Below are positions 2,299-28,069 of a stretch of DNA of 34,819 nucleotides, one piece after another. The first letter of the stretch is position 1; the number at the start of each line of letters is the position of its first letter. Origin of the DNA: Desulfobacterales bacterium GWB2_56_26 (lineage in GTDB: Bacteria > Desulfobacterota > Desulfobulbia > Desulfobulbales > Desulfocapsaceae); contig MGTI01000079.1 in NCBI GenBank assembly GCA_001799365.1, positions 1 to 34,819 on the forward strand, written 5' to 3'. The notes under the pieces are model-generated. The model made no database searches. It was not told the origin of the DNA and was given only the letters and a program-made list of their open reading frames with translations. A program made the position numbers and the translations under genes.

Positions 2299-2958
2299 AT
2301 GAGGTATACATCAATAATATTTGATTTGGATGGTACTCTTCTTGATACTCTGGCAGGGCTTGTTACCACGTGCAATGCAGTGCTTGCCAGACACGGTTTT
2401 CCTCCGCACGAGAGCGAAAAATATCGGTATTTCGTCGGTGACGGATTGACGACTCTGATGGAGAGAATAGCGCCTGCAGGGACAGGCAAATCTCTCCTTG
2501 ACGAGTGTTGCGGACTTTTCTCCGAGTTGTATGAAAAAAACTGGAAGTATTCCTGCTTGCCATACGCCGGTGTTCCCGAGATGTTGGCAGCATTGCGGGA
2601 AAATTCATTTCATCTCGCCGTATTATCGAATAAACCGCATGCATTCACGTCCCTGATCGTTGAGGATTTTTTCCCGGGAGAGGTATTTTCGCAGGTATAC
2701 GGCCAAAGGGATGGGTTTGCCAAAAAACCGGATCCTGAAGTCGCCTTGGAAATTGCCGCAAGATTCGGTTCGAAACCTTCGGAAACCATTTTTGTCGGAG
2801 ATTCGGGTGTGGATATCCGAACCGGCAAGTCAGCCGGTATGATGACGGTCGGAGTTGCCTGGGGTTTTCGAAAAAGAGAAGAGTTGATGGAAAATAAAGC
2901 AGATATAATCATTAATAGTCCTATGGAGCTGTTGCATCATGTTGCCCCTCTCACCTGA
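2299..2958 (+). CDS. gph: HAD-family phosphatase, probable phosphoglycolate phosphatase
   Basis: This 219-residue haloacid dehalogenase hydrolase shows the four HAD motifs. Motif I is FDLDGTLLDT with nucleophile D9 and acid/base D11. Motif II is LSNKPH. The lysine of motif III lies in KKPDPE, and motif IV is VGDSGVDI. A helical cap follows motif I. The length and motif spacing match phosphoglycolate phosphatase, which clears 2-phosphoglycolate formed during DNA repair. Related HAD enzymes such as pyrophosphatase PpaX look similar, so the substrate is inferred. The ATG at 2299 has only a weak ribosome-binding site (AGGG about 12 nt upstream). The last 20 nt overlap the start of the DUF445 gene, so the two are probably co-translated. 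Confidence 0.85.
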   Translation: MRYTSIIFDLDGTLLDTLAGLVTTCNAVLARHGFPPHESEKYRYFVGDGLTTLMERIAPAGTGKSLLDECCGLFSELYEKNWKYSCLPYAGVPEMLAALRENSFHLAVLSNKPHAFTSLIVEDFFPGEVFSQVYGQRDGFAKKPDPEVALEIAARFGSKPSETIFVGDSGVDIRTGKSAGMMTVGVAWGFRKREELMENKADIIINSPMELLHHVAPLT

Positions 2959-4543
2959 GTTGCTTGTCTATGCCAAATATATTACTCCGCCGCTGGTCGG
3001 CGCATTCATCGGCTATCTGACCAATAAAGTTGCTATTCGCATGCTGTTTCGGCCACTCGCCGCCTGGAGAATCATGGGGATGCGGGTGCCGATGACACCC
3101 GGTGTTATCCCTGCCAAGAGAGAGGAGTTGGCCAGGAATTTGGGTGATGTTGTCGGCGATCATCTGCTTACCGGCAAAGATATCGCCAAAGGGTTGCAGC
3201 ATGAGGTGTTTCAGCGCCATCTCTATAACCTCATCCATGAGCGGATGGAGGGAATATTGCAAAAGGACCTGGGCACGCTCTCTTCGGTCATACCGGATAA
3301 GTTTCAGGTGTATTTCGAGGTCGGCAAAAAGACCTTGAACTATCAGATTAAGGAACAGATCCACAACTTCATTGCATCGTCCCAATTTCAGTCCATAGTC
3401 GAACAGGTTATCGGCGATAAACTCGATCACTTTCTAGAAAATGATGCGGATTTGGTTTTTTCCTCGGAACGAAGGGAAGCGGCATATTCGTTTGTAGAAC
3501 AGAATATTGCCAGAATGATTGCCGACCAAACCATGGAACAGTGGGTGGGGGATACCATTAGCCGGAAGGTTGCGGATATTCTACAAAGGGAGAAATCATT
3601 AACCGACATTCTTCCCGTTTCACTCACCGAACTGCTGACTACAACCATCGTCAATCAGACGCCGTCGCTGCTCAACAAGCTGGCGACGCTGATCGGCGAA
3701 CCGGAGGTGAGGGATAAGATCGTCAAAGGGGCCTGTGCGGGTATCGATAACTTCATCGGCACCCTTGGCGGCATGGCCGAAATGGTTCGGGGTTTTTTGC
3801 GGATGGATACCGTGGAGGGAAAGATCCGCACCTATCTCATCGACAAAGAAGACGATATTACCGCCTGGCTGCAGTCGGAGGAAGTTCAGGCCAGGTTGGT
3901 TGCCATCCTCAGTGAGCGCAGTCAGGATTTTCTCCGGAAACCCATAGCAGAATGGGTGAAGACGGAAGAAGATTTTGTGGCGGCTTTTTGCAGCCAGTGC
4001 ACCGGACAGGTGTTGGCGGTGCTGAAAAGTGAAGAAGTGCCGGTCATGCTGACGGCAATGATACGAAATAATATCGAAGATTATTTCCAGACTGGTGGCA
4101 TGAGCCTGCAACAACTCGGCTCTGTCTTCATCGGCGACCGGGCAATGGCATCGGCCAGGAACTGGCTCACCAGCGAAATAAGCGAGATTCTTCAGTCACC
4201 GGCCACCATGGAGACTGTCGATTCTGTGGTGGATCTGTTGCTCTCTTCGCTGCTGCAGAAACGGCTGGGAAAACTCGCGAACATCATTCCTGCCGGAGTG
4301 CGGCAGGGAATGGCGCAATCCCTGCAAAAGATGGCGGCAGACATGCTGGAGATAGAGGTGCCGGGTCTGGTTCAGTCGCTCAATATCAAAAAAATCGTCA
4401 CCGATAAGGTCAATTCTCTGGATATCCTGAAGCTGGAAGGCTTGCTGTTGTCCATCATGGAGGAGCAATTCAAATATATCAACCTGTTCGGGGCGCTGCT
4501 CGGTTTTCTGATTGGTTGCGGCAATCTCCTGCTTCTTCTCTAG
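2939..4543 (+). CDS. DUF445 family membrane protein
   Basis: This 534-residue protein is of unknown function. A hydrophobic N-terminal segment (about residues 13-32) contains GAFIGYLTNKVAIRMLFRP, characteristic of DUF445 proteins such as Bacillus YheB. It is followed by VPMTPGVIPAKREELA. A long, mostly helical middle region (about 60-505) follows, then a C-terminal membrane helix ending in a run of leucines (about 510-533). Both ends therefore appear to be in the membrane. The gene overlaps gph by 20 nt. Its TAG stop codon lies inside the CTAG that bounds the inverted-repeat element at 4540-4687, so the original C-terminus may have been set or altered by that insertion. The biological role is not known. 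Confidence 0.88.
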   Translation: MLPLSPELLVYAKYITPPLVGAFIGYLTNKVAIRMLFRPLAAWRIMGMRVPMTPGVIPAKREELARNLGDVVGDHLLTGKDIAKGLQHEVFQRHLYNLIHERMEGILQKDLGTLSSVIPDKFQVYFEVGKKTLNYQIKEQIHNFIASSQFQSIVEQVIGDKLDHFLENDADLVFSSERREAAYSFVEQNIARMIADQTMEQWVGDTISRKVADILQREKSLTDILPVSLTELLTTTIVNQTPSLLNKLATLIGEPEVRDKIVKGACAGIDNFIGTLGGMAEMVRGFLRMDTVEGKIRTYLIDKEDDITAWLQSEEVQARLVAILSERSQDFLRKPIAEWVKTEEDFVAAFCSQCTGQVLAVLKSEEVPVMLTAMIRNNIEDYFQTGGMSLQQLGSVFIGDRAMASARNWLTSEISEILQSPATMETVDSVVDLLLSSLLQKRLGKLANIIPAGVRQGMAQSLQKMAADMLEIEVPGLVQSLNIKKIVTDKVNSLDILKLEGLLLSIMEEQFKYINLFGALLGFLIGCGNLLLLL

Positions 4544-4687
4544 GAGGCTGTCCGAGAATGCCCTTTTCACCATATCTTCATTAAACTCGAAAAAATTATC
4601 CTCGGAATATTAAATATATGCCTCCGGTAATTTTTTCAAGTTTGCCTCGATCTGAGAAAAAATTGCTATTCTCGGACAACCTCCTAG
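4540..4687. repeat. MITE-like inverted-repeat element between convergent genes
   Basis: The arms are 4540-4559 (starts CTAGGAGGCTGTCC) and 4668-4687 (the reverse complement, starting CTAGGAGGTTGTCC). They match at 19 of 20 positions. A second, nested inverted repeat lies at 4583-4598 and 4628-4643, with 15 of 16 matches. There is no coding capacity. CTAG at both outer edges looks like a 4-bp target duplication, leaving a 140-bp element with 16-bp terminal repeats. The GGCTGTCC-type ends resemble insertion-sequence termini, so a non-autonomous element moved by a transposase elsewhere is likely. It sits exactly between the DUF445 and rlmN stop codons. Its RNA would fold into a long hairpin on either strand, so it may also act as a bidirectional terminator. 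Confidence 0.75.
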
Positions 4688-4693
4688 CGTCAG

Positions 4694-5782
4694 TCACTCG
4701 CTATCAGAATCCTGAGGAACTGATTTTTCAGTGGCAAGCTGACCGCAGGCGGCGGAGATATCGGCGCCGCGGCTGTTTCTGATAAATACCGTGTAATGCG
4801 CCTCCAGCAGAATTTGCTGGAAGGCCAGAAGCCGGTCCATTCCGGGGCTTTGGTAGGGCAGGCCCGCGGACTCATTATAGGGCAGAAGATTGATCTTACA
4901 GGGAATCCCCGAGAGTTTTCGGGCCAGTTCCCTGGCATCCCGGTCGGAATCGTTAATGCCTTTCAACAGGATGTACTCGAACATAATCCTTTTTCTTTTC
5001 GGCATGGGAAAATCCCGGCAGGCATCCAACAACTCGTCGATGGAATAGCGATCGTTGATGGGCATCAGCCTGCGCCGCGTTTCATCGTCTACGGCATGCA
5101 GGGAAATGGCCAGATTCACCGGCGATTTCTCCCCCAGTTCGCGCATTTTCGGTACTATCCCGCAGGTCGAGACGGTAATTCGCCGGGGGGTGAGGTCGAG
5201 GCCTTTCTGTTCGGTTACGATCGACAGCGAGTCGAGGACATTCTCAAGATTGTTGAGAGGTTCGCCCATCCCCATAAAGACCACATTGGTTACCCGATCC
5301 GGCCCGATAAGCTGCTCGCGGGGCTGAGCGAGGAGGTAGTCTCTTACGCCGCAGATCTGGTTGACGATCTCCGCAGGGGTGAGATTTCTCTTGAAGCCCA
5401 TGGTTCCGGTAAGGCAGAAGGCACATCCCATGGCGCAGCCCACCTGCGAAGAGATGCACAGGGTGTTTCGGTCCGGTTCCGGAATGAGGACCGATTCGAT
5501 AATGTTGCCGTCACCGAGCCGGAAGCCGAACTTGACGCAGCCGTCTGCCGATTTCTCGATAAGCGGATCGGTGAAACGGGAAATAAAGGCATGCTCCGCC
5601 AGGATACTCCTGAATTCCTTTGCCAGATCGGTCATCTGGGCAAAATCCGTAACCCCCGGGCGATAGAGCCAACCCATTATCTGTTTGCCGCGAAAGGCCG
5701 GCTGGCCGAGGCTTTCGACGTAGGCAACGAGTCCCGCCTGGGTGAGATTCTTCAAATCGACTTTATTTACGGTACTGCTCAC
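4694..5782 (-). CDS. rlmN: Dual-specificity 23S rRNA/tRNA adenine C2-methyltransferase RlmN
   Basis: This radical SAM enzyme makes 2-methyladenosine at 23S rRNA A2503 and, in many bacteria, at tRNA A37. It has 362 residues, normal for the family. The 4Fe-4S site is C116-X3-C120-X2-C123 within SSQVGCAMGCAFC, followed by GMGEP at 171-175. The two catalytic cysteines of the family correspond to C109 and C346 (GADISAACGQ). The start is GTG at 5782, with AGGAG 6 nt upstream. It overlaps the preceding radical SAM gene as GTGA, a coupled arrangement. It is the last gene of the trmL-serC-radical SAM-rlmN run. The stop codon lies 7 nt from the inverted repeat at 4540-4687. Confidence 0.96.
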   Translation of the reverse strand: MSSTVNKVDLKNLTQAGLVAYVESLGQPAFRGKQIMGWLYRPGVTDFAQMTDLAKEFRSILAEHAFISRFTDPLIEKSADGCVKFGFRLGDGNIIESVLIPEPDRNTLCISSQVGCAMGCAFCLTGTMGFKRNLTPAEIVNQICGVRDYLLAQPREQLIGPDRVTNVVFMGMGEPLNNLENVLDSLSIVTEQKGLDLTPRRITVSTCGIVPKMRELGEKSPVNLAISLHAVDDETRRRLMPINDRYSIDELLDACRDFPMPKRKRIMFEYILLKGINDSDRDARELARKLSGIPCKINLLPYNESAGLPYQSPGMDRLLAFQQILLEAHYTVFIRNSRGADISAACGQLATEKSVPQDSDSE

Positions 5783-9889: not shown

Positions 9890-11602
9890 ATGGTACCGAA
9901 GAAATGTGCAACCACGGACAGCGAATCGAGAGAAATACCACATGTCTTTAACGAGTTGTTAAAAAAACGTGGGGTAGTAGGTGAAGAAATGGTGCGCAGG
10001 TTCCTCTATCCTCGTCTCTCCGATCTTCCGCAGCCCCAAGCTATGAAGAATCTTCCTGAGGCGGTTCGTCTTGTCGTTCAATGCATAACATCCGGAAAGC
10101 AGATTGTGGTATGGGGCGATTACGATGTCGACGGCACCACGGGCACCGCACTTATGGTGAATTTTTTCCGAGAGTTCGGGGTGGATGTTCTCTGGCATAT
10201 CCCCAACAGGCTGACGGAAGGATATGGACTGAACACCGATTGGTTCCTGGAGCGGAGAAAAATCGATTTGTCCAAGGATTTCCTTCTGATTACAGTAGAC
10301 TGCGGTATCTCAAACGCTCCGCAGATCGAACTCATTCAAAGAATCGGCGGGACAGTTATCGTCACCGATCATCACAACATCCCGGAGAACGGCTTGCCGT
10401 CCTGTCTTATTCTCAATCCTGCCCAGGCTGCCTGTGGTTTTCACCGTGAGCATCTAGCCGGCGTGGGCGTAGTATTTTATCTGGCGGCAGGAATACGGAC
10501 CGAGTACTGCAGTAGGGCAGGATCAGCAGTGTTGCCGGAAAAAATGAATCTTAAGAAGTACCTTGCTCTTGTAGCCCTTGGAACCATAGCCGATGTCGTT
10601 GATTTGACGGCAACCAACAGGATCCTGGTGAGGGCGGGACTTGAGGCGCTGGCTGAAACAACTTTTCCAGGCCTTCAGGAATTGCTCATCTCATGTGACA
10701 TTTGTAAGGGAGATATAACTTCTGAAGACATCGGGTATCTGATCGGTCCAAAAATAAATGCTGCGGGCAGGTTAGGGGAGAGCGATCTCGTGGTAAATAT
10801 CCTCACTGCAAAAAGTCGCAAAGAAGCCAAGGGCTTGGTTCAAAAACTCACGGAACTCAATGAACTCCGCAGAAGAATAACCGCAGACAGTCTAGAAACA
10901 GCTTTAAGTATTATTCGCAAGTATCATGCAGAAGACAACAAATGCCTCATTGTCAAAGGAGAGTTGCACCAGGGTGTTGCCGGAATTGTTGCCGCAAGGC
11001 TCGTTGAAATGTATGGAGTGCCTTCCATAGTTTTCGCGAAAAAGAATACGCCGGATGGTTCGGTGAGCTTTGTGGGGTCGGCGAGATCTATCGAAGGAAT
11101 GCACATTCTTGACATGATCAACGTATGCTCGAAATGGGTCGATCGCTACGGTGGTCATGAAATGGCTGCAGGTTTGTCGATAAGCCTCGAAAAAATGGCA
11201 GATTTTGAGTTGGCGTTCGTTGCGGCAGCCCAAGATAAATGGGAGCAACGATCCCTGGTGAAAAAGCGGCGCTTTGATGTCGAGTGCTCCGTCGATCAGC
11301 TGATGACAACTGATTATATCGCATTTTTTAAACTGCTGGAACCCTTCGGGCCGGGCAATTTGCAGCCGATTTTTTATGATAATTCGGTCCGAATAGTTGA
11401 CTCAAAAACGGTGGGCAAGGATTCCGAACATCTGCATCTGACCATCCGCGGCAAATATGCAAACCTCAAAGGTATAGGTTTTAGTTTAGGGGGACGGATT
11501 GACGAGGTGCAAAAGGTTCCGGAACGAAGCATTCTCTTTGTGCCAATCATCAATCGTTTTCGCGGTAATATCAGTTGGCAGGTGAGGGTGATTGATTTGT
11601 AG
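9890..11602 (+). CDS. recJ: Single-stranded-DNA-specific exonuclease RecJ
   Basis: RecJ is a 5'-3' exonuclease on single-stranded DNA, acting in RecFOR recombination, mismatch and base excision repair. The protein has 570 residues. The DHH-family metal motifs are WGDYDVDGTTG (about 75-85), TVDCGI (135-140) and TDHH (159-162). A DHHA1 region with GGHEMAAGLSI follows near residue 420. An OB-like C-terminal part contains LLEPFGPGN. The ATG at 9890 directly follows the miaA TAA with no gap, so it is probably translated by coupling. It is the last gene of the comEA-miaA-recJ run. Confidence 0.96.
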   Translation: MVPKKCATTDSESREIPHVFNELLKKRGVVGEEMVRRFLYPRLSDLPQPQAMKNLPEAVRLVVQCITSGKQIVVWGDYDVDGTTGTALMVNFFREFGVDVLWHIPNRLTEGYGLNTDWFLERRKIDLSKDFLLITVDCGISNAPQIELIQRIGGTVIVTDHHNIPENGLPSCLILNPAQAACGFHREHLAGVGVVFYLAAGIRTEYCSRAGSAVLPEKMNLKKYLALVALGTIADVVDLTATNRILVRAGLEALAETTFPGLQELLISCDICKGDITSEDIGYLIGPKINAAGRLGESDLVVNILTAKSRKEAKGLVQKLTELNELRRRITADSLETALSIIRKYHAEDNKCLIVKGELHQGVAGIVAARLVEMYGVPSIVFAKKNTPDGSVSFVGSARSIEGMHILDMINVCSKWVDRYGGHEMAAGLSISLEKMADFELAFVAAAQDKWEQRSLVKKRRFDVECSVDQLMTTDYIAFFKLLEPFGPGNLQPIFYDNSVRIVDSKTVGKDSEHLHLTIRGKYANLKGIGFSLGGRIDEVQKVPERSILFVPIINRFRGNISWQVRVIDL

Positions 11603-15241: not shown

Positions 15242-17254
15242 CTATTCTTCGTGTTCGGTATCCTCTCCCCTTCCCTTTGGCGGCTGATCGAAAGGCAGAG
15301 GAAGAATGTGTTTCTCGGGCGGCCTGCTTTCGCCCGACGATGGTACTATTTTTCTGACTGCGCGATTGGAAAGCCGTTTTCCTTTTGCGGCAACATTTTT
15401 GATCAGGAAATCGTCAAAAGCCACTCCCATGCTGTTGGTTCGTGCCCTGGACGACGGGGCCAGACCAATTTTTACGTGCTTATTCTCCCCGAAATCCAGA
15501 TGCAGGATCCTCGACCTTTTATGTTCCGGAAACAGGCGATATTCCTTTTCGAGAATAAAGCTGGGGGTCGTGAACCGTTTGAGATAGGCATAGTTCTCCG
15601 CGCCGTCCCGGTAAATAATGTTGAAGATGATGTCCTTTTCGACAATGCCGAACCAGTAAAGATCGTCGCCCACGTAGAGTTTTTCCGTCACCGGAATCAC
15701 TTTGTAGAGACCGTCGGCAAAGAGTAAAAGCAGCTTGTCGTACTCGGAACAGGCCACGCTCTTATCGTCCGGATCCTCTTCTTTGATCTGATGTCCCAGG
15801 AACCCTGATTTCCGGTTGTAGACGACAATGAGATTGGAAAGAGCAACTGTCCGGATGCTGATTTCGGAAAAGCTGGTGATCTCAGTCTGGCGCGGATAGA
15901 GGTGGCCGTATTTTTTCAGCAGATCATCAAGGAAGGAGATCGTAAAACCCACCATATCCTGCAAGGATTTGTGAATTTCTTTCATTCTTTTCCGGATCTC
16001 TTTGATTTCCTGGTGATGTTTGTTGATATCATGGCGGGAGATGCGTTTGATTTTGATCTCGAGAAGCCGTTCGATATCCTCTTTGCTGGCCGGTCGAATG
16101 AGCTGTTCTCGATATGCCGCGAGTGAATTATCTACCGATTTTATAACGGCCTGATAGCTGGTCTCCTCTTCGATATTTTTATACAGTCGCTCCTCGATAA
16201 AGATTTGTTCGAGAACCTTGGCGTGCAGCTTCTCTTCCAGCCGTCCCAATTCGATTTCAAGTTCTTTCTGAAGATCGTTCTGTAACTTCCTGGTGTTCTG
16301 ATGTAATACCTCGCTTACAGTCGAGGTCTCGGGGTTCATTCCATTGATCAGGGTAAGATTAGGAACGATGGAGACTTCGCAATCGGTAAAGGCATAGAGG
16401 GCTTCGATGGTGTCCTTGGCGTATATGCCTCTGGCCAGTTTGATCTCGATCTCGATATTCTCCGCCGTATAATCGTTGATCGAGACTATCTTGATTTTCC
16501 CTGCCCTTGCCGCTTTTTCAATGGAATCGGTCAAGGACTGGGTGGTAGTCGAGTAGGGAATCTCTCTGATTATTATGGTTTTTTCGTTGGATTCCTCGAT
16601 CCTTGCCCGGCATCTGACCTTGCCGTTGCCATCCTCGTAGTTGCTGACATCCATAATCCCCTTTTGCTGAAAATCGGGATACAGCACGAACTCTTCCCCG
16701 CGCAGGATATTTTTTTGGGCTTCGAGCACCTCGCAAAAATTGTGGGGAAGGATTTTGGTGGCCATGCCGACGGCAATGCCTTCCGCGCCCAGGAGCAGCA
16801 ACAACGGAATTTTTGCCGGAAGAGTAACCGGCTCGAGCATCCTGCCGTCGTAGGATTCGATGAAATCGGTAAGATCTTTGTTGAACAGAATCTCTTTGCC
16901 AAGGGGGGAAAGCCGGCATTCGATATACCGCGCAGCCGAGGCTCGATCTCCGGTGAAGATGTTGCCGAAATTTCCCTGCTGTTCAATCAGATACTGTTTG
17001 TTGCTCAGGTTGACGAGAGCCGCAAAGATGGATTGGTCGCCATGGGGATGGAGCTTCATGGTCTCCCCCACTACGTTGGCAACCTTGTGAAACCGGCCGT
17101 CCTCCATGTTGTGCAGAGTCTGGAGCAGGCGTCGCTGGACGGGTTTCAAGCCATCTTCAAGGGATGGGATCGCTCTTTCACGAATAACATAAGAGGTGTA
17201 TTCGATGAAGTTCTTGTCAAATAACTGATGCAGCTTGCCTGGATGGGGTTCCAT
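15242..17254 (-). CDS. parC: DNA topoisomerase IV subunit A, Bacteroidetes-like type
   Basis: This is the DNA-cleaving subunit of a type IIA topoisomerase. It has 670 residues, shorter than GyrA or E. coli ParC. Motifs include GLKPVQRRLLQTL (QRR, 40-42), HPHGDQS (69-75) and ASAARYIECRLSPL with catalytic Y110. A long helical coiled region spans about 325-445. The C-terminal domain is degenerate and lacks a recognisable GyrA box, which argues for decatenation/relaxation rather than supercoiling. The positions of the GyrA quinolone-contact residues S83 and D87 are Q74 and A78 here. The C-terminal tail is charged and low complexity. It follows parE by 82 nt. The class resembles second topoisomerase pairs of Bacteroidetes and Chlamydia, so a separate gyrase is expected elsewhere. 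Confidence 0.88.
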   Translation of the reverse strand: MEPHPGKLHQLFDKNFIEYTSYVIRERAIPSLEDGLKPVQRRLLQTLHNMEDGRFHKVANVVGETMKLHPHGDQSIFAALVNLSNKQYLIEQQGNFGNIFTGDRASAARYIECRLSPLGKEILFNKDLTDFIESYDGRMLEPVTLPAKIPLLLLLGAEGIAVGMATKILPHNFCEVLEAQKNILRGEEFVLYPDFQQKGIMDVSNYEDGNGKVRCRARIEESNEKTIIIREIPYSTTTQSLTDSIEKAARAGKIKIVSINDYTAENIEIEIKLARGIYAKDTIEALYAFTDCEVSIVPNLTLINGMNPETSTVSEVLHQNTRKLQNDLQKELEIELGRLEEKLHAKVLEQIFIEERLYKNIEEETSYQAVIKSVDNSLAAYREQLIRPASKEDIERLLEIKIKRISRHDINKHHQEIKEIRKRMKEIHKSLQDMVGFTISFLDDLLKKYGHLYPRQTEITSFSEISIRTVALSNLIVVYNRKSGFLGHQIKEEDPDDKSVACSEYDKLLLLFADGLYKVIPVTEKLYVGDDLYWFGIVEKDIIFNIIYRDGAENYAYLKRFTTPSFILEKEYRLFPEHKRSRILHLDFGENKHVKIGLAPSSRARTNSMGVAFDDFLIKNVAAKGKRLSNRAVRKIVPSSGESRPPEKHILPLPFDQPPKGRGEDTEHEE

Positions 17255-17336: not shown

Positions 17337-19169
17337 CTAATTGACGACGACCAGGTGATCCATAATATACTTTCGTCGAATCGGCGTGTTCTTGCCCATG
17401 TAGAAAGAGAGCACCTTGTGTACCTCGCTCAAGGAATCGAGGGTCACGCTTTTGATGCGGATGTCGGGGCCGATAAATTGTTTGAATTCCTTGGGAGATA
17501 TCTCACCCAAACCTTTGAACCGGGTGGTTTCCACCACGGCAGCTTTGTTGCCCTTACTTAATTTTTTGGTCGCTTCCTGCTTTTCCTGCTCCGAGTAACA
17601 GTATATCGTTTCCTGTTTGTTCCGGACCCGGAAGATAGGGGTCTCGAGGACGTAGACGTAGCCTAGTTTGACCAAGGGCTCGAAATAATGAAGAAAAAAA
17701 GTGAGCAGCAGGTTTCGGATATGCAAACCGTCGACATCGGCATCTGTGGCCAGAATGACCTTGTCATACCTGATGTCGGAAATGGATTCTTCGATATTGA
17801 GAGCCCTCATCAGGGCGTACAGTTCTTCGTTTTTATACAGCATTGCCATTTTCTGGCCGTAGACATTCATCGGTTTTCCCTTCAGCGAAAAAACCGCCTG
17901 AGTCATCGGGTCCCTCGATGAGACGATCGAGCCGGCCGCCGATTGGCCTTCCGTAATGAAGATCAAACTCTCTTTGCCGGGTTCCGTCGGCTTGTTCTTG
18001 GTCGGATGGTATTTGCAATCCTTGAGCTGATCGATTTTCAGAGCCACTTTCTTGGCATTGGCCCGGGCTTCCGAGCGGACGCTCTGTAGTTCCTTTCTGA
18101 CATTTTCATTGCGGATGATCTTTTCGATCAGCCTTTGCGCGGATTCGGTGTCCTTGTACAGTGCGCTGGAGACGGCATCCCTTACCTTGCCGGCAATCCA
18201 TGACCTGATTTCGGTATTGCCCAGTTTGTTTTTGGTCTGCGACTCGAAGACGGGATCTTTGACTTTGATGGCCAGGGTACCGACTATGCCGTCGCGCACG
18301 TCGGTGTTGATAAATTTCTTGCCGGAAAACTCATTGATACCCTTCAGGATCCCTTCGCGGAAGGCGGAAAGGTGGGTGCCTCCTTCGCTGGTGTAGGTGC
18401 CGTTGACAAAGGTGAAGTAGCAGTCGCTGAAGGTGTCGGTATGGGAAAAAGCAAACTCAAGCGTTGCATCGCGGTAGTAGATGGGGGTGTACAACTCTGC
18501 GCCGTCCAGTTCCTTGCCGAGCAGGTCAAGCAAGCCATTGGCCGAGTAAAATACCTTCTTGTCAAAGTAAATTTTCAGCCCGGCATTGAGGTAGGCATAT
18601 CGCCAAAGGCGTTTTTCGACAAACAACGAATCGAAAGCAAAGTCGGGAAACATGGCAGCCGATGGCAGAAACTCGATGCAGGTGCCGTTTTTCTCTTCGG
18701 TCTCACCTTCCTGTTGATCAATCAGTTTGCCGTCATTGAATTTGGCAGCAACAAATTTGCCGTCCCGATAGGAAGTTACAATGAAAAGCTCAGATAAGGC
18801 ATTGACTGCCTTGGTCCCCACACCGTTCAAACCGACGGAAAACTGGAATACATCGGTGTTGTATTTTGCCCCGGTGTTGATGGTCGAAACACAGTCGACG
18901 ACTTTGCCAAGCGGAATCCCCCTGCCGAAATCCCTCACCGTCACATAGCCGGTGGGATCGATGGCGATATTAATCCGTTTGCCCGCTCCCATGATGAATT
19001 CGTCAATGGAATTATCGACAACCTCTTTCAAAAGAATATAGATGCCGTCATCATGGTTGGAGCCATCTCCCAGCCGACCGATATACATCCCCGGACGCTT
19101 TCGGATATGGTCGAGAGAACTCAGGGTTTTTATCTTGCTTTCATCGTAAGTAGTTGTAGATACGTTCAT
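17337..19169 (-). CDS. parE: DNA topoisomerase IV subunit B, Bacteroidetes-like type
   Basis: This 610-residue protein is the ATPase subunit partnering ParC. The GHKL fold shows HIRKRPGMYIG (21-31), EVVDNSID with N53, RDFGRGIP (79-86), and the ATP lid GLNGVGTKAVNALS (113-126). The transducer QTK loop is Q311-T312-K313. The TOPRIM domain has EGQSAAGS (407-414) where the usual sequence is EGDSAGGS or EGDSASGS. It also has the metal-binding DADVDG (476-481). TTRFKGLGEISP (548-559) is typical. A promoter lies 45 nt upstream at 19214-19242. ParC is the next gene. Position 409 is Gln instead of Asp, the residue equivalent to E. coli GyrB D426, whose change is linked with quinolone resistance. Confidence 0.92.
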   Translation of the reverse strand: MNVSTTTYDESKIKTLSSLDHIRKRPGMYIGRLGDGSNHDDGIYILLKEVVDNSIDEFIMGAGKRINIAIDPTGYVTVRDFGRGIPLGKVVDCVSTINTGAKYNTDVFQFSVGLNGVGTKAVNALSELFIVTSYRDGKFVAAKFNDGKLIDQQEGETEEKNGTCIEFLPSAAMFPDFAFDSLFVEKRLWRYAYLNAGLKIYFDKKVFYSANGLLDLLGKELDGAELYTPIYYRDATLEFAFSHTDTFSDCYFTFVNGTYTSEGGTHLSAFREGILKGINEFSGKKFINTDVRDGIVGTLAIKVKDPVFESQTKNKLGNTEIRSWIAGKVRDAVSSALYKDTESAQRLIEKIIRNENVRKELQSVRSEARANAKKVALKIDQLKDCKYHPTKNKPTEPGKESLIFITEGQSAAGSIVSSRDPMTQAVFSLKGKPMNVYGQKMAMLYKNEELYALMRALNIEESISDIRYDKVILATDADVDGLHIRNLLLTFFLHYFEPLVKLGYVYVLETPIFRVRNKQETIYCYSEQEKQEATKKLSKGNKAAVVETTRFKGLGEISPKEFKQFIGPDIRIKSVTLDSLSEVHKVLSFYMGKNTPIRRKYIMDHLVVVN

Positions 19170-21887: not shown

Positions 21888-22337
21888 ATGAAACGACCAT
21901 TCCATACCATTCTGCTCACCGGACTCTTCGGTCTCTTTCTCTCTACTTCAGCAGGCGCCGCCGATTATCTCACCGTAACCACCGACAATGCCAATGTGCG
22001 CACCGGTGCCGGAACCAATTATCCTTCCTCGATGGAGCTTTTTCAGGGTTACCCGCTCAAGGTATTGAAAAAAGTCGGCGAATGGTACCAGGTCGCAGAT
22101 TTTGAGAATGACTCCGGCTGGATCCATCAGAGTGTGGTGAAAAAAGGTGATTCGGCAATCGTGAATTCCGACAAGAGCGTGAATATGCGCAGCGAGCCAT
22201 CGACCGAAAGCGCCGTGGTTGCCGATGTCGAACGGGGGGTAGTGGTAACGGTACTGGCGACCAAGGGTAAATGGACGCAGGTACGTCATGCGAGCGGCAC
22301 CACCGGGTGGATATTTGCTCCCTTGCTCTGGCCCTGA
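21888..22337 (+). CDS. Secreted protein with two bacterial SH3 domains
   Basis: This 149-residue protein has a signal peptide of about 24 residues (MKRPFHTILLTGLFGLFLSTS, with probable cleavage after AGA). Two SH3b repeats follow. The first, about 27-85, contains NVRTGAGTNYPSSMELFQG and GEWYQVADFENDSGWIH. The second, about 90-149, contains NMRSEPSTESAVVADVERG and GKWTQVRHASGTTGWIF. Such proteins usually bind peptidoglycan or act as periplasmic adaptors; no enzyme domain is present. A stop codon lies in frame just upstream, so the ATG at 21888 is fixed, yet no clear Shine-Dalgarno sequence precedes it. Its 3' end overlaps the 3' end of the convergent helicase gene by 52 nt. The preceding gene also acts on peptidoglycan. 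Confidence 0.88.
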   Translation: MKRPFHTILLTGLFGLFLSTSAGAADYLTVTTDNANVRTGAGTNYPSSMELFQGYPLKVLKKVGEWYQVADFENDSGWIHQSVVKKGDSAIVNSDKSVNMRSEPSTESAVVADVERGVVVTVLATKGKWTQVRHASGTTGWIFAPLLWP

Positions 22338-25291
22338 TAGAGGATGTCGCAGATCGTCTTGTCCAGGGTCAAGGGCAGACGCACCTTCTGTTTCGATTTG
22401 TTGGCGAAGAGAAAATAGCCTTCCTCCAAGCCATGCAAGAGTAGGTTTTTAGTGATTTCCACATCTTTTCGGCAGTACTGCCGAATGAGATCGAGGCGCC
22501 CTTCCTTATACCACTGCAGGGCCTGCAGCCCATCCGCCGTTTTTTTCGTGCCGAGAGTGTGTTCGGCAAGGCTGTCAAGGCGCAGTCGATAGCCAAGGTA
22601 TTTATGGACTTCCTCCAGAAGGTCAAGTGAGGGAAGTCGGTTGAGATCGAGATCGGTATAGCCGGACAACACCCTGTTATCAAACCGTTTGTTGTTGAAG
22701 CCAACCACCAGGTCGAAGCTGTTCAGGTGATCGACAAGCTGATCGATTTCATCCTCCAGATAGGTAACATAATCGTCCATTTCCGAATCGAACACAATCG
22801 CCACAGACACTCCCATGCGGTGGGCCTGGTTCCAGCCTCCGACTTCCTCGGCGGAGCGGATCGTTTCAAGATCAAAAACCCCGTACTTGGCCGGCAGGGC
22901 GTCGAGCCCCATTCGGGCTGGACGAAGGTGATGTACTGCAAGGCCTTTGGGAAAGAATGAAATCCCAGGAAGAGTCAATTCCTCCACTGCTCTCGCCGCT
23001 TCCGGCTGGTCGGCCGGTTGTTCCTGCTCCTTCAGCATTTCCTCCAGTAACCTGAGGCAGGCCTGCTTGTCGATCGGTCTGTTGCCGGAACCGCATTTCG
23101 GCGAATGCACGCATGACGGACAACCAGTTTCGCAACCGCAGGAAGCGATGGTCCGGCGGGCTTCCCGCAGGAGAAGATCTATCTGCCGGAATGCCTCTTT
23201 GGCCAGGCCGACTCCCCCCGGATACCCGTCATAGACAAAGATCGAGGCTTGTTCCGTCTGGGCATGGAAGGGGCAGGAGATGCCGCCGATATCGTTGCGG
23301 TCGCATAGCACAAGTAACGGAAAAAGGGCGATCATCGCATGTTCCAGGGCGTGGATCGCTCCCATGAAGTGCAGCTTTTCCTGCTCGAATAAGGCGACTA
23401 AAGAAGGCGGGATGTCGAGCCACAGCCCCTCGCTTTCAATCGTCTGCTCGGGCAGTTCCAGGCTCGCGGTCGAAACCAGTTTCTGCGTATGATTATTGCG
23501 TTTTTGGTAACCTGTCACCTTTTCGGTGACCCTCACCCTGCCAAAAGATACTCGGGCGGAAAAAGTGGCTTTGGTGGCAATTACCTCCAGGATCTCCGTC
23601 CTTTTTTCCGCCATCGGCCTGGTGAAATAGCTGGGAGACTCACGTCGAACGAGAATTTCGTTGGCCTCAAGATCAAAGTGATCGACAACCCAGATTTTCG
23701 AGCGATGCAGATACACCGCGCCGGGGTGACATTCTTTCAGTCCGCGAAGGTTGTCGATCTCGCCGATAATCTCGCCTGATTCCCCGTCGATAATGGCCAT
23801 TTGCGCCCCTCCGCCGCGCAGGCTGACATGGCGCTGGGGGTATTTTCTTGCCGAGATCCACTGGTCGCCTGCGGCAGTCTGCAGCAGCGCGCCGGAAAGA
23901 GCGAGCGCCTCGACCCGTTGCTGGATCATCAAGCTTTCAAGAAGCTTTTCCGACACGAAGATCGGCAGTTCGGCGCCGCAGCAGTGGAGATGGCAATCCA
24001 TGATCGAGGTATTGTCCGGGTTGAGCACCGCTGATTCCGGCGATCTGCGGAAAAAATCCTCGGGTTGTTTCATGAAGTGCTGATCCAGGGCATCTTCCTG
24101 GCCGATAAGGATGGTGGCGGAATTTCTTCGTCCCCGGCCCACTCTGCCGCCACGCTGCCAGGTGGCCATGATCGACCCCGGATATCCCACCAGGATGCAG
24201 AGATCCAAGTCGCCGATGTCGATGCCCAGTTCGAGGGCGGAGGTGGAGATGACCCCCAGAAGTTCGCCGGAGAAGAGCATCTTTTCGATCTCGCGCCGTT
24301 CTTCCGGCAAGAATCCGGCGCGGTAGGCACTGAGTTTGGCGGAAAGTTCCCCCAGGCGCGGGGCGGTCCACATGTTGATGAGTTCGGTCATCTTGCGCGA
24401 CTGGGTGTAGACGATGGTCCTGAGGCCCCTCTTCACCGCCGCCTCGAGAAGCTGGCAGGCGGTGTAGGCGGCACTGTCCCAGGGGTTGATGAACAGCATA
24501 TGTTTTTCCGCCTGGGGGGCGCCCGATTCGGCGATTACCTCGACCGGCCGGTCCAGCAACAGTCTCCCCAGTTCCCCGGGGTTGCCGATGGTCGCGGACA
24601 GCAGAATGAAAACCGGCTGCGCCCCGTAATGGGCCGCGATGCGGACCAAACGGCGGATGACCCAGGCCATATGGCTGCCGAGCACCCCGCGGTAGCTGTG
24701 TACCTCATCGATGACCACATATCGCAGCCTGCCGAAAAAAGACTGCCAGTTGCGGTGATACGGGAGCATGGACAGATGCAGCATTTCCGGGTTGGAGAGT
24801 AGAACCTTGGGCGGATTCTCACGAATCTTTCTTCTGGCGTAGCTCGAGGTGTCGCCATCAAAGAGGGCGGCGAAATGCGGATGATTGCTGCGGATTTCGT
24901 CTGGAAGCCTGGCAAACAAGCCTTCCAGCACCTTGTACTGATCCTGGGCGAGGGCCTTCAAGGGGAAGAGATAGAGCGAATGGCCGGGATCCTGCCGAAA
25001 AAGATCGTTCAGGACCGGGAGATTGTATATCATGCTCTTGCCCGAGGCGGTGGGCGTGGCGACCAGAACATCCCGGCCTTCGAGGATCTTTGCTATTGCC
25101 CGGCACTGGTGGGTGTAGAGGCGTTCGATCCCTGCCTGCCCGAGACATCCCCGCAGCGGGTCGGATAGCGGGGGGAATTGGGGATCATACTCCCCCTCTT
25201 TTTCCGGTTGAATTCTGTGACAGACCACCTGCGGACCGAATTTGGCCGAGGCCTTGAGCGAGGCTACATATTCTGCAATGTCTGCGATCAT
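22286..25291 (-). CDS. MrfA-like DEAH helicase with DUF1998 fused to MrfB-like DEDD exonuclease
   Basis: This 1001-residue protein joins two repair modules. Helicase core: a Q-like motif LYTHQ (59-62), Walker A TPTASGKS (79-86), DEVH (195-198), SAT (232-234), TSALELGID (350-358) and QRGGRVGRGRR (379-389). The middle is a YprA/MrfA-type region ending in a DUF1998 domain. Its metal-binding cysteines are C718, C720, C724, C727 and C733. The C-terminal part (about 800-970) is a DnaQ-like nuclease with D807/E809 (FDLET), D871 (FNNKRFD) and Y939/D943 (YCRKDVEI), the full DEDDy set. In Bacillus subtilis MrfA and MrfB are separate and together repair mitomycin lesions; here they form one chain. The ATG at 25291 has no good ribosome-binding site. 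Confidence 0.88.
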   Translation of the reverse strand: MIADIAEYVASLKASAKFGPQVVCHRIQPEKEGEYDPQFPPLSDPLRGCLGQAGIERLYTHQCRAIAKILEGRDVLVATPTASGKSMIYNLPVLNDLFRQDPGHSLYLFPLKALAQDQYKVLEGLFARLPDEIRSNHPHFAALFDGDTSSYARRKIRENPPKVLLSNPEMLHLSMLPYHRNWQSFFGRLRYVVIDEVHSYRGVLGSHMAWVIRRLVRIAAHYGAQPVFILLSATIGNPGELGRLLLDRPVEVIAESGAPQAEKHMLFINPWDSAAYTACQLLEAAVKRGLRTIVYTQSRKMTELINMWTAPRLGELSAKLSAYRAGFLPEERREIEKMLFSGELLGVISTSALELGIDIGDLDLCILVGYPGSIMATWQRGGRVGRGRRNSATILIGQEDALDQHFMKQPEDFFRRSPESAVLNPDNTSIMDCHLHCCGAELPIFVSEKLLESLMIQQRVEALALSGALLQTAAGDQWISARKYPQRHVSLRGGGAQMAIIDGESGEIIGEIDNLRGLKECHPGAVYLHRSKIWVVDHFDLEANEILVRRESPSYFTRPMAEKRTEILEVIATKATFSARVSFGRVRVTEKVTGYQKRNNHTQKLVSTASLELPEQTIESEGLWLDIPPSLVALFEQEKLHFMGAIHALEHAMIALFPLLVLCDRNDIGGISCPFHAQTEQASIFVYDGYPGGVGLAKEAFRQIDLLLREARRTIASCGCETGCPSCVHSPKCGSGNRPIDKQACLRLLEEMLKEQEQPADQPEAARAVEELTLPGISFFPKGLAVHHLRPARMGLDALPAKYGVFDLETIRSAEEVGGWNQAHRMGVSVAIVFDSEMDDYVTYLEDEIDQLVDHLNSFDLVVGFNNKRFDNRVLSGYTDLDLNRLPSLDLLEEVHKYLGYRLRLDSLAEHTLGTKKTADGLQALQWYKEGRLDLIRQYCRKDVEITKNLLLHGLEEGYFLFANKSKQKVRLPLTLDKTICDILYQGQSKGANIHPVVPLA

Positions 25292-25337
25292 GATGAAGTG
25301 CGAAGCGACCCGAAGCTGCCCAGGCTATTATAAACAG

Positions 25338-25366
25338 TTGCTTAAAGACTTGATTATGGATATTTT
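25338..25366 (+). promoter_or_regulatory. Candidate promoter of the prephenate fusion gene
   Basis: TTGCTT (25338-25343) and TATTTT (25361-25366) are 17 nt apart, giving a leader of about 95 nt. On the opposite strand a TATAAT at 25332-25327, lacking a good -35, may serve the helicase gene. Confidence 0.38.
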
Positions 25367-25467
25367 GCACAGCATCTTTGCAAATATGTAATGCCCGGTG
25401 ATTTTCCCTTTTATACCACATTCAGCCGGGAAACAACGAATCTTTCACTCCGACGATACGTTCAATC

Positions 25468-27165
25468 ATGCTTTCCATCGCCACCCTCGGTCCTGTCGGA
25501 TCCGATAGCCATCAAGCGGCCTGCCAATATGCTCCGGGTGCAGAGTTGCTCCTGTTCAACCGCATTGCTGATGTCCTTGCGGCCTTTCGTGATGGTCTGG
25601 CCGATCGCCTGCTGATTCCGGTTTACAATACCCGGGAGGGAGAAATAAAGGATTATTTTCGGCTGGTTGCGAGAATGGAGCAAGGTTTCTGGGTGGATAA
25701 TATCGTCCTGCCCATTCATCTTTCCTTAGGTGCCCTGGCAAATCCCGATAAGGGAGGAGCGGAAATCACCACCATCGTCGGCCGGGGGTCGGTGTTCAGG
25801 CAATGCGACGAATTTATCGATGAACATTATCCGTACGCCACGCTGATGAAGGTTCCGGATATCGAAGCGGCGATGACGGCTATCAAGTCGGAAAACAAGC
25901 AAGGTCATGCGGTGATCGATTCCGAGGAGCTAGTCAAAAAGCATGGTTTTACGCTGATCGCACGAGAAGTGGTCGCCCATAATCGCACGAGGTTTGCCAT
26001 CATCGGCCGGGAATTGGCACCGGTCTCGGGTTACGATGCCACCGCAGTCATAACCAGGCCTCTGCGCGACCGGGTGGGAATGCTCGCCGATATCCTGGGA
26101 GAGTTCACCCGGCGGGGAATCAATATCCTCGATTTGCAGTCGGAAAACGATATCAAGACCCAGAAATTGCAGATCTACGTTGAAATAGAGGGCCACGTCA
26201 ACGACCGCATGCTGAAAGACGCCCTGCAGACCATTGAGAAAGTTGTTATTCAGGAGGACGACTCGTTGAAGGTTCTGGGTTCTTTTCCCCGGGTGGATAT
26301 GCGGGTGAAGAAAATCAAAGCCTTCGGGTTCATCGGCAGCGGGGCCATGTCCAAATGGTTCGCCGACCGGCTGCAGAACGAAGGGTATAAAACTCTCGTT
26401 ACCGGCCGTTCAACCCCCGTTACTCCGGAAGAAATGATCAACCAGGTAGATGTAGTCGCCGTCTGTGTGCCGATCTCGGTCACATCCGAAACTATCAGAA
26501 ATTATGGTCCCCTGCTGCGGGACGGCCAGGCTCTGATCATCCTGGCCGGCGAATCGGAAAATACTATCAAGGCTTCACTCGAGTCAACCAGTCCCGGGGT
26601 CGAGGTGATGTTTGTCCACAATCTCTGGGGGCCGCAGGCCCTGACCATGAAGGAAAAGAATGCCGCTATTGTGCGCACCCATAGAAGCGGATGCTTTTGC
26701 AGTGAATTCGAAGCTTTTCTCTACAAACACGGGGCAGACATCAATCACGACAGCGCCTCCGAACACGATCTGCTCATGGGAGTCGGACAAAAATTGCCGA
26801 CTACGATTTCCGTGGCTCTCGCCAAGACGCTGCGGGAACACCGGATAAATTGCGACGATATTAACAGCCATTCTACCCTGACTTCTCTCTACGGAATCCT
26901 GGCAATGGCTCGCGTTCACAATCAGAATCCCCGAACTTATGCGGAAATAATGGCCACATCCGGAGACGGCAGAAAGATTGTGCGGACTTTTGCTAAGAAT
27001 CTCATTCTGCTCATCGAACTCGCCGAGCAGGGCAAGATTACCGAACTCACTACAATTATGGATGAAAATACCGACTTTATGCCCTCGTCGTTCCTCCAGG
27101 CCAGGATGAAACAGGCAAAGGCGGTCGACGAGCTGATGAGTCATCCCAACATGAAGATTTATTAA
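25468..27165 (+). CDS. Prephenate dehydratase-like/ACT/prephenate dehydrogenase fusion protein
   Basis: This 565-residue protein has three parts. Residues 1-182 resemble prephenate dehydratase (PheA): LGPVGSDSHQAA stands where GPxGTxS is usual, and the catalytic TRF motif is T174-R175-F176. Residues 193-262 form an ACT domain (RVGMLADILGEFTRRGINILDLQS), the usual site of amino-acid feedback. Residues 283-545 are a TyrA dehydrogenase with a nucleotide loop GFIGSGAMSKW and VDVVAVCVP. VHNLWGP (383-389) appears in place of HPMFGP, and SEHDLLMGVGQ follows. The chain could lead prephenate to both phenylalanine and tyrosine. The dehydratase segment PVYNTREG replaces the common PIENSxxG, so it may be regulatory or altered. 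No clear Shine-Dalgarno site precedes the ATG. Confidence 0.85.
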   Translation: MLSIATLGPVGSDSHQAACQYAPGAELLLFNRIADVLAAFRDGLADRLLIPVYNTREGEIKDYFRLVARMEQGFWVDNIVLPIHLSLGALANPDKGGAEITTIVGRGSVFRQCDEFIDEHYPYATLMKVPDIEAAMTAIKSENKQGHAVIDSEELVKKHGFTLIAREVVAHNRTRFAIIGRELAPVSGYDATAVITRPLRDRVGMLADILGEFTRRGINILDLQSENDIKTQKLQIYVEIEGHVNDRMLKDALQTIEKVVIQEDDSLKVLGSFPRVDMRVKKIKAFGFIGSGAMSKWFADRLQNEGYKTLVTGRSTPVTPEEMINQVDVVAVCVPISVTSETIRNYGPLLRDGQALIILAGESENTIKASLESTSPGVEVMFVHNLWGPQALTMKEKNAAIVRTHRSGCFCSEFEAFLYKHGADINHDSASEHDLLMGVGQKLPTTISVALAKTLREHRINCDDINSHSTLTSLYGILAMARVHNQNPRTYAEIMATSGDGRKIVRTFAKNLILLIELAEQGKITELTTIMDENTDFMPSSFLQARMKQAKAVDELMSHPNMKIY

Positions 27166-27992: not shown

Positions 27993-28069
27993 GTGGGCGT
28001 AGCTCAATTGGTTAGAGCACCTGGTTGTGGCCCAGGAGGCCGTGGGTTCAAGTCCCATCGCTCACCCCA
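27993..28069 (+). tRNA. tRNA-His (GTG anticodon)
   Basis: The cloverleaf folds fully. The acceptor is GTGGGCG pairing with CGCTCAC. The D-arm is GCTC...GAGC. The anticodon stem is CCTGG/CCAGG with loop TTGTGGC and anticodon GTG at 28027-28029. The T-arm is GTGGG TTCAAGT CCCAT. The extra G-1 that marks tRNA-His is encoded at 27992 opposite C73, and the 3' CCA is encoded at 28067-28069. A promoter precedes it and a terminator follows within 50 nt, so it is a single-gene unit. Confidence 0.98.

Follow-up and report, generated by a model that had tools for sequence, protein, structure and literature searches.

A MrfA-type helicase joined in one chain to a DEDDy exonuclease-type domain, probably distinct from MrfB, is widespread in Desulfobacterota

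In Bacillus subtilis the 3'-5' helicase MrfA (YprA) and the 3'-5' exonuclease MrfB (YprB) (PMC12458937) act in a response to mitomycin C that is independent of UvrABC (PMC11194089). MrfB is described as a separately encoded DEDDh enzyme (His258) with an N-terminal extension and a tetratricopeptide repeat (TPR) tail; an AlphaFold model of the MrfAB complex brings a free 3' end close to the active site of MrfB, and the same paper calls the interaction with MrfA unknown (PMC11194089). Related YprA helicases serve the DISARM, Dpd and Druantia systems, and a 2025 preprint mentions YprA helicases fused to MrfB/YprB homologs, by which the fusion as such is already known, and states that complementation requires alleles of close relationship (PMC12458937). 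The authors of a study of Staphylococcus aureus DinG describe that protein as a natural fusion of MrfA and MrfB (PMC12345164). Here we analyse a gene of this kind in a 34,819-nucleotide stretch (the window) of Desulfobacterales bacterium GWB2_56_26, which forms contig C79 (MGTI01000079.1) of a genome of 4.5 Mb in 263 contigs that is 89% complete. One uninterrupted frame of 1001 residues with an ATG start, on the minus strand at 22286-25291, joins an MrfA-type superfamily 2 (SF2) helicase to a C-terminal domain of the DEDDy 3'-5' exonuclease type. The original prediction for this locus, drawn from the letters of the DNA, had the right coordinates, gave no strand and placed C718, C733, D807, E809, D871, Y939 and D943 correctly. 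We consider it rather probable that the protein is a housekeeping repair enzyme of Desulfobacterota, working like MrfA-MrfB, in which an MrfA/YprA-type helicase is flexibly linked to a DEDDy exonuclease of the proofreading/phage type that is not MrfB.

The helicase half belongs to the MrfA/YprA (DUF1998/MZB) helicases, as seen from its SF2 core, its MrfA Zn-binding (MZB) domain with a cysteine cluster and its closest structure. Residues 22-732 match B. subtilis YprA/MrfA (6znp, E 3e-151), the nearest solved chain in a sequence search of the Protein Data Bank (PDB), and a fold search with the full-length AlphaFold2 (AF2) model, which is confident (mean predicted local distance difference test score, pLDDT, 88.8; predicted template modelling score, pTM, 0.88), returned MrfA entries as its top four PDB matches (best E 5e-72). 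Pfam places on the minus strand a RecA1/DEAD domain (PF00270, 103 bits; residues 60-236, 24584-25114), a RecA2/Helicase_C domain (PF00271, 47.2 bits; residues 279-386, 24134-24457), an HRQ1-type winged helix (PF22982, 25.8 bits, just under the cut-off of 27; residues 424-493, 23813-24022) and MZB, the former DUF1998 (PF09369, 84.7 bits against a cut-off of 24.2; residues 649-728, 23108-23347). The full DEAH helicase core that had been predicted is thus present in its two domains, but motif II reads DEVH (195-198) and not DEAH; Walker A is TASGKS (K85). To follow conservation we used alignment A3, in which the window protein is joined by 66 of the 72 full-length relatives among the named loci, these loci being the best 80 of 262 relatives. 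K85, D195 and E196 are present in 67/67 rows, and so are the five residues of the DUF1998 cysteine cluster, which the prediction had also recognised: C720, C724 and C727 lie between C718 and C733, the last of them just past MZB. The best NCBIfam model, TIGR03817 (putative DEAH-box helicase), scores 693.9, under its cut-off of 874.1. By analogy with MrfA, the helicase would have 3'-5' polarity.

The C-terminal domain (residues ~797-985, 22337-22903, minus strand) is a DEDD RNase H-like exonuclease domain by profile and fold, supported by PF13482, the AF2 model, the fold matches and the phage exonuclease profile, and is predicted to have 3'-5' exonuclease activity. PF13482 (RNase_H_2) matches residues 850-950 of the whole protein with 25.1 bits against a cut-off of 22, over profile positions 49-160 only, so that all four families proposed for the two halves (PF00270, PF00271, PF09369 and PF13482) have a match; on the nuclease domain alone PF13482 reaches 29.5 bits, and at E 0.01 it recovers 26 of 29 members. 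A DNA_pol_B_exo2 match at 888-945 of the whole protein lies under its cut-off, and PF10108 gives 24.1 bits for the isolated domain, against a cut-off of 24, and 19.4 for the whole protein. Modelled separately with AF2 (pLDDT 94.8), the nuclease finds its best PDB matches in the proofreading domains of the B-family DNA polymerases of Pyrobaculum and Thermococcus and of T7 DNA polymerase (Foldseek E ~3e-6; fold comparison Z 14.6-13.7 over ~160-170 residues among the 50 matches listed). The MrfB structure 8un9 is not among the 50 matches listed in the structure searches, an absence that excludes nothing. The nearest viral structure model is H9C0I0 (E 3.5e-13, 214 residues, 29%), which from its equal length we take to be gp06 of Bdellovibrio phage phi1422, and the fused domain has a match of E 4e-13 to PHROG 403, 'DNA polymerase exonuclease subunit'.

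All five catalytic residues are present in the window protein: D807-x-E809 in Exo I (FDLET, 22865-22873), D871 in Exo II (GFNNKRFD, 22679-22681) and Y939-x3-D943 in Exo III (YCRKD, 22463-22477), where Tyr stands four residues ahead of the last Asp on a long helix (933-957). The C-terminal DEDDy nuclease of the original prediction is thereby borne out. The five residues are kept in 67/67 rows of A3; among the window protein and 29 relatives from the same genus, family and order, D807, E809 and D871 are found in 30/30 rows and Y939 and D943 in the 29/29 that reach them, the remaining row ending at a contig end before these positions; and 19 of 20 members hand-picked across the phylum from 120 strong-match genomes (see below) keep all five, with Tyr in 20/20. 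These three sets are not independent, as named loci and other genomes may share species. The DEDD residues are hence retained in nearly all relatives checked, not lost from the homologues, and the domain did not turn out to be other than RNase H-like. A linker of low confidence (residues 760-789, 22925-23014, minus strand; pLDDT < 50), probably disordered, separates the two halves and in the model agrees better with a tether than with a rigid connection. Residues 751-800 have a mean identity of 19% to the relatives and the nuclease (800-960) 67%, and the stretch 750-798 varies from 29 to 58 residues across the 67 rows and, measured in a somewhat different way, attains up to 124 residues in the members from across the phylum. 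The longest case, L204 (genome G163), is a fused frame of 1210 residues in which an insertion of ~25 residues breaks the helicase match and the linker measures ~124 residues.

The fusion is widespread in the phylum. Of the 80 named loci, 72 carry it as a single frame that matches over > 850 residues, which excludes a chance fusion; 6 are partial at contig ends, and in 2 the frame is broken (L108, L142). The best-matching named records are Desulfobulbaceae metagenome-assembled genomes, Desulforhopalus and Desulfopila, and the cultured strains Desulfoprunum benzoelyticum DSM 28570 (L080) and Desulforhopalus singaporensis DSM 12130 (L075) are among those with a full-length fused gene. The nuclease profile matches in at least 129 of 395 phylum genomes at E 0.001, a lower bound because at most 8 candidates were scored per genome. 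After removal of nine weak or cut matches (G061, G085, G093, G132, G172, G190, G216, G409 and G426), 120 strong-match genomes were left, and in 117 of these the nuclease lies in an open frame of 581-1210 residues (at least 940 residues in 113 of the 117). The other three are two genomes with matches at contig ends (G344, G437) and G279, which has a free-standing copy: its fused-type nuclease is a gene of 219 residues (L041:1465-2124, minus strand) directly downstream of an HD-domain phosphohydrolase gene, and no MZB helicase matched in this genome, which is 99% complete. These counts rule out a fusion unique to the genome of the window. An apparent break or recoding of the gene in five genomes (G016, G017, G019, G030 and G035) was likewise rejected, since their loci (L020, L017, L024, L023 and L025) are single open frames and the matches overran the natural stop. 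A search of plasmids gave no match.

Of the 395 genomes, 197 have an MZB helicase, and six MrfA-type helicases (L145, L146, L147, L148, L150, whose stop lies 12 bases from the contig end, and L154) end after MZB with no nuclease of the fused type adjoining. Two further loci of an initially eight-member group were set aside, L155, where the frame runs to the contig end, and L157, where it stops ~50 bases from the contig end and part of a nuclease is found on a different contig of that genome; both helicase trees still label these two as solo, and the nuclease-free group is overstated there to that extent. In the trees (L151, which sits on a very long branch in the first, and 12 close fused rows were omitted from the second) L154 (genome G026, of the same family as that of the window) falls inside the fused group and therefore most likely lost its nuclease, whereas the other five nuclease-free helicases form one clade. 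The pattern fits one fusion and at least two losses, in trees with a midpoint root only and unresolved deep branches.

The fused nuclease is probably set apart from MrfB, to judge from profile comparison and from the fifth catalytic residue. The fused domain matches in hhalign phi1422 gp06 and the protein of the IMG/VR contig L143 at 99.6% (E 2.5e-24), a free-standing YprB-like family at 42% (E 3e-4) and MrfB at 19.9% (E 1e-3), distant at best, the MrfB profile being small (four sequences, one copied from a printed alignment stretch and one cut by a contig end); the YprB-like family matches MrfB at 97.8%. A further alignment, A6, combines 48 of the 66 named loci of A3 with the window domain and L143. 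Structure 8un9 was not recovered from the PDB with the fused-domain sequence (E up to 10) or the family profile (E up to 1), and the YprB-like family recovers it with E 4e-5. On the PDB sequence searches and the profile comparison, an MrfB orthologue in cis was dropped as the leading reading. Of the original claim of an MrfA-MrfB-like fusion, the MrfA-like helicase and the DEDDy nuclease in one chain therefore stand, and a likeness to MrfB beyond the shared DEDD fold does not.

MrfB proteins also occur in the phylum. In 19 genomes chosen as being without the fused form or otherwise odd, RNase_H_2 matched in 14, and three carry MrfB adjoining an MrfA-type helicase: in G261 a helicase of 772 residues is followed after 19 bases by a DEDDh MrfB of 414 residues (L196), and in G322 and G078 MrfB (L197, L199) lies upstream of the helicase and is cut by a contig end in G078. 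Absences in the PF13482 genome searches are soft, as such a search missed the window's own domain, which hmmscan finds. The fifth catalytic residue is His in all three MrfB proteins and Tyr in every fused row that reaches the position, and the helicases adjoining mrfB branch apart from the fused ones in the helicase trees, with long branches and a midpoint root. The genome of the window has a further YprB-like gene (L001:1246-2085), free-standing and of 279 residues, which adjoins a DeaD/DbpA-type RNA helicase gene and has relatives in 37 of 57 related genomes, its own included; its product is nearer to MrfB by profile than the fused domain is, yet it reads Tyr and is DEDDy.

The gene converges with an SH3-domain gene (21888-22337, plus strand), the two ends overlapping by 52 bases (22286-22337), and diverges from a prephenate dehydratase-dehydrogenase gene, in which a domain search finds prephenate dehydratase (PDT), ACT and PDH_C domains in one frame of 565 residues (25468-27165, plus strand). 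Among the 80 named loci, 65 contain a relative of the SH3 gene and 63 one of the PDT-PDH gene; presence within the locus was counted over all 80, many of them truncated at a contig end. PADLOC gave no match for the four neighbours tested, and this together with the recurring synteny speaks for a stably kept chromosomal housekeeping gene; a defence-island gene was rejected on the same grounds. Three SOS-type patterns sought in 25201-25500 gave no match. Elsewhere the window holds an A subunit of topoisomerase IV/gyrase type (PRK09631 kind, 946.9 bits; 15242-17254, minus strand) adjoining a B subunit of 610 residues (17337-19169, minus strand), a RecJ-type frame with DHH, DHHA1 and RecJ_OB domains (9890-11602, plus strand) and a tRNA-His (GTG; 27993-28069, plus strand).

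Several observations weigh against the preferred reading of a repair enzyme with a proofreading/phage-type nuclease other than MrfB. When the YprB-like profile is the query, the fused rows obtain 14-20 bits and fall within the 12-31 bits spanned by the four MrfB sequences, and PHROG 403 also matches the YprB-like protein, albeit more weakly (8.5e-7). The MrfB fold is itself reported to resemble archaeal B-family proofreading domains (PMC11194089), and because of this likeness MrfB is inseparable from the fused domain by fold. The C-terminal TPR expected of MrfB is absent from the fused domain, which is followed by 16 residues only, and this is a weak marker, given that L197 and L199 stop with the nuclease domain and L196 has no TPR match in Pfam. 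Nor is the nuclease kept everywhere, as seen from the probable loss in L154 and from L219 (genome G127), which reads N-E-D-Y-N with Asn at 807 and 943. Some weight goes to a true MrfA-MrfB fusion, in which the C-terminal domain would derive from an mrfB that once adjoined mrfA and has since diverged from His to Tyr: the YprB-like profile scores fused rows and MrfB alike, mrfA and mrfB do adjoin in the phylum, as in G261, the domain passes the RNase_H_2 cut-off, and the preprint speaks of MrfB/YprB homologs as the fusion partners (PMC12458937). We nevertheless regard such an origin as unlikely in view of the far closer profile match to the two phage exonucleases than to MrfB, with the YprB-like family on the MrfB side, the Tyr in all fused rows reaching the position and the separate branching of the mrfB-adjoining helicases, long-branched and midpoint-rooted as those trees are.

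Somewhat less likely still is a target other than mitomycin-type adducts, for instance R-loops, 3' ends in recombination or foreign DNA. PADLOC helicase models (BrxH, DruE, DpdF and others) match the helicase half, YprA relatives work in the defence systems named above (PMC12458937), and in G279 the nuclease stands free where no MZB helicase matched; however, the PADLOC matches fall mainly on the SF2 motor, with one DruE model at 676-769, none was seen in the four neighbours, and relatives share the setting next to aromatic-acid and vitamin genes, which is unlike a defence island. We give very little credence to a nuclease domain that is catalytically idle and only binds 3' ends, for which L219 might be cited, considering that the window protein and every row of A3 have the complete active site. 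L218, a close relative of L219, retains both Asp, and L219 is possibly a natural nuclease-dead form.

Under the reading that we prefer, a repair enzyme combining an MrfA-type helicase with a DEDDy exonuclease other than MrfB, the helicase would load on single-stranded DNA and move 3'-5', freeing a 5' flap on the displaced strand while the 3' end of the strand it tracks would be left in its wake. This trailing end would be offered to the tethered 3'-5' exonuclease, which would therefore most naturally trim the tracked strand; the damaged strand, with a monoadduct or an intrastrand crosslink, would be trimmed back in this way and refilled by a polymerase. The division of labour would be that of MrfAB, here in cis, with a mitomycin adduct as a candidate substrate by the parallel with that pair. 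Helicase and nuclease are fixed 1:1 by the single chain, as the original prediction held, and the direct coupling of unwinding and degradation that it proposed is plausible. In such a natural single chain the stoichiometry is set and one purification yields both halves, so that coupling could be tested through changes in the linker and the active sites. More tentatively, and as something that could well be otherwise, we suggest that the MrfA helicase acquired a 3'-5' exonuclease on at least two occasions and from different sources, once as the DEDDh protein MrfB from a separate gene and once in Desulfobacterota as a proofreading/phage-type DEDDy domain in the same chain. Two separate sources would mean convergent evolution of a coupled unwinding-and-trimming repair machine, and the fused form would be a ready-made single-chain system for testing the joint action of both activities.

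Compared with the described systems, the window protein shares its helicase half (22-732), including the Zn-binding domain, with B. subtilis MrfA (YprA; 6znp, 6znq, 6zns), whose PDB chain of 751 residues has no nuclease, and adds to it a linker and a DEDDy exonuclease. With MrfB (YprB, 8un9) it shares a DEDD RNase H-like 3'-5' exonuclease fold as the partner of an MrfA helicase, and it differs in that the fused domain is DEDDy and spans ~190 residues, unlike the separately encoded, extended DEDDh protein (PMC11194089). Phi1422 gp06, a 'putative exonuclease', and the L143 protein are 30-33% identical to the fused domain and share with it GW and YC-x2-DV positions, but they are free-standing proteins of 214 and 202 residues; a viral scan starting from L143 found only L143 itself, and L143 had no match among phage records. 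In phi1422 (L144), gp06 (2432-3076) lies a few short genes from gp02 (3958-5406, 482 residues), a 'putative helicase' of the ResIII/Helicase_C SF2 kind in which MZB was not matched, another case of a helicase and a DEDDy exonuclease near each other. The YprA-MrfB/YprB fusions of the preprint have the same helicase family with a nuclease in cis and probably include the present group; the available portions of that text do not describe the fused nuclease as DEDDy or phage-type or set it apart from MrfB (PMC12458937), and a literature search limited to open-licence papers showed, among the papers listed, no further one on a fusion of MrfA/DUF1998 to an exonuclease. S. aureus DinG likewise holds a helicase and a 3'-5' exonuclease in one chain, with the differences that its exonuclease is DEDDh and N-terminal and its helicase polarity is 5'-3', and it is a working precedent for this combination in a single chain (PMC12345164). 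If the nuclease of the Desulfobacterota protein is truly of other origin than MrfB, then a helicase with a 3'-5' exonuclease would be the unit under selection, as in DinG, rather than an oddity of a single pair of genes.

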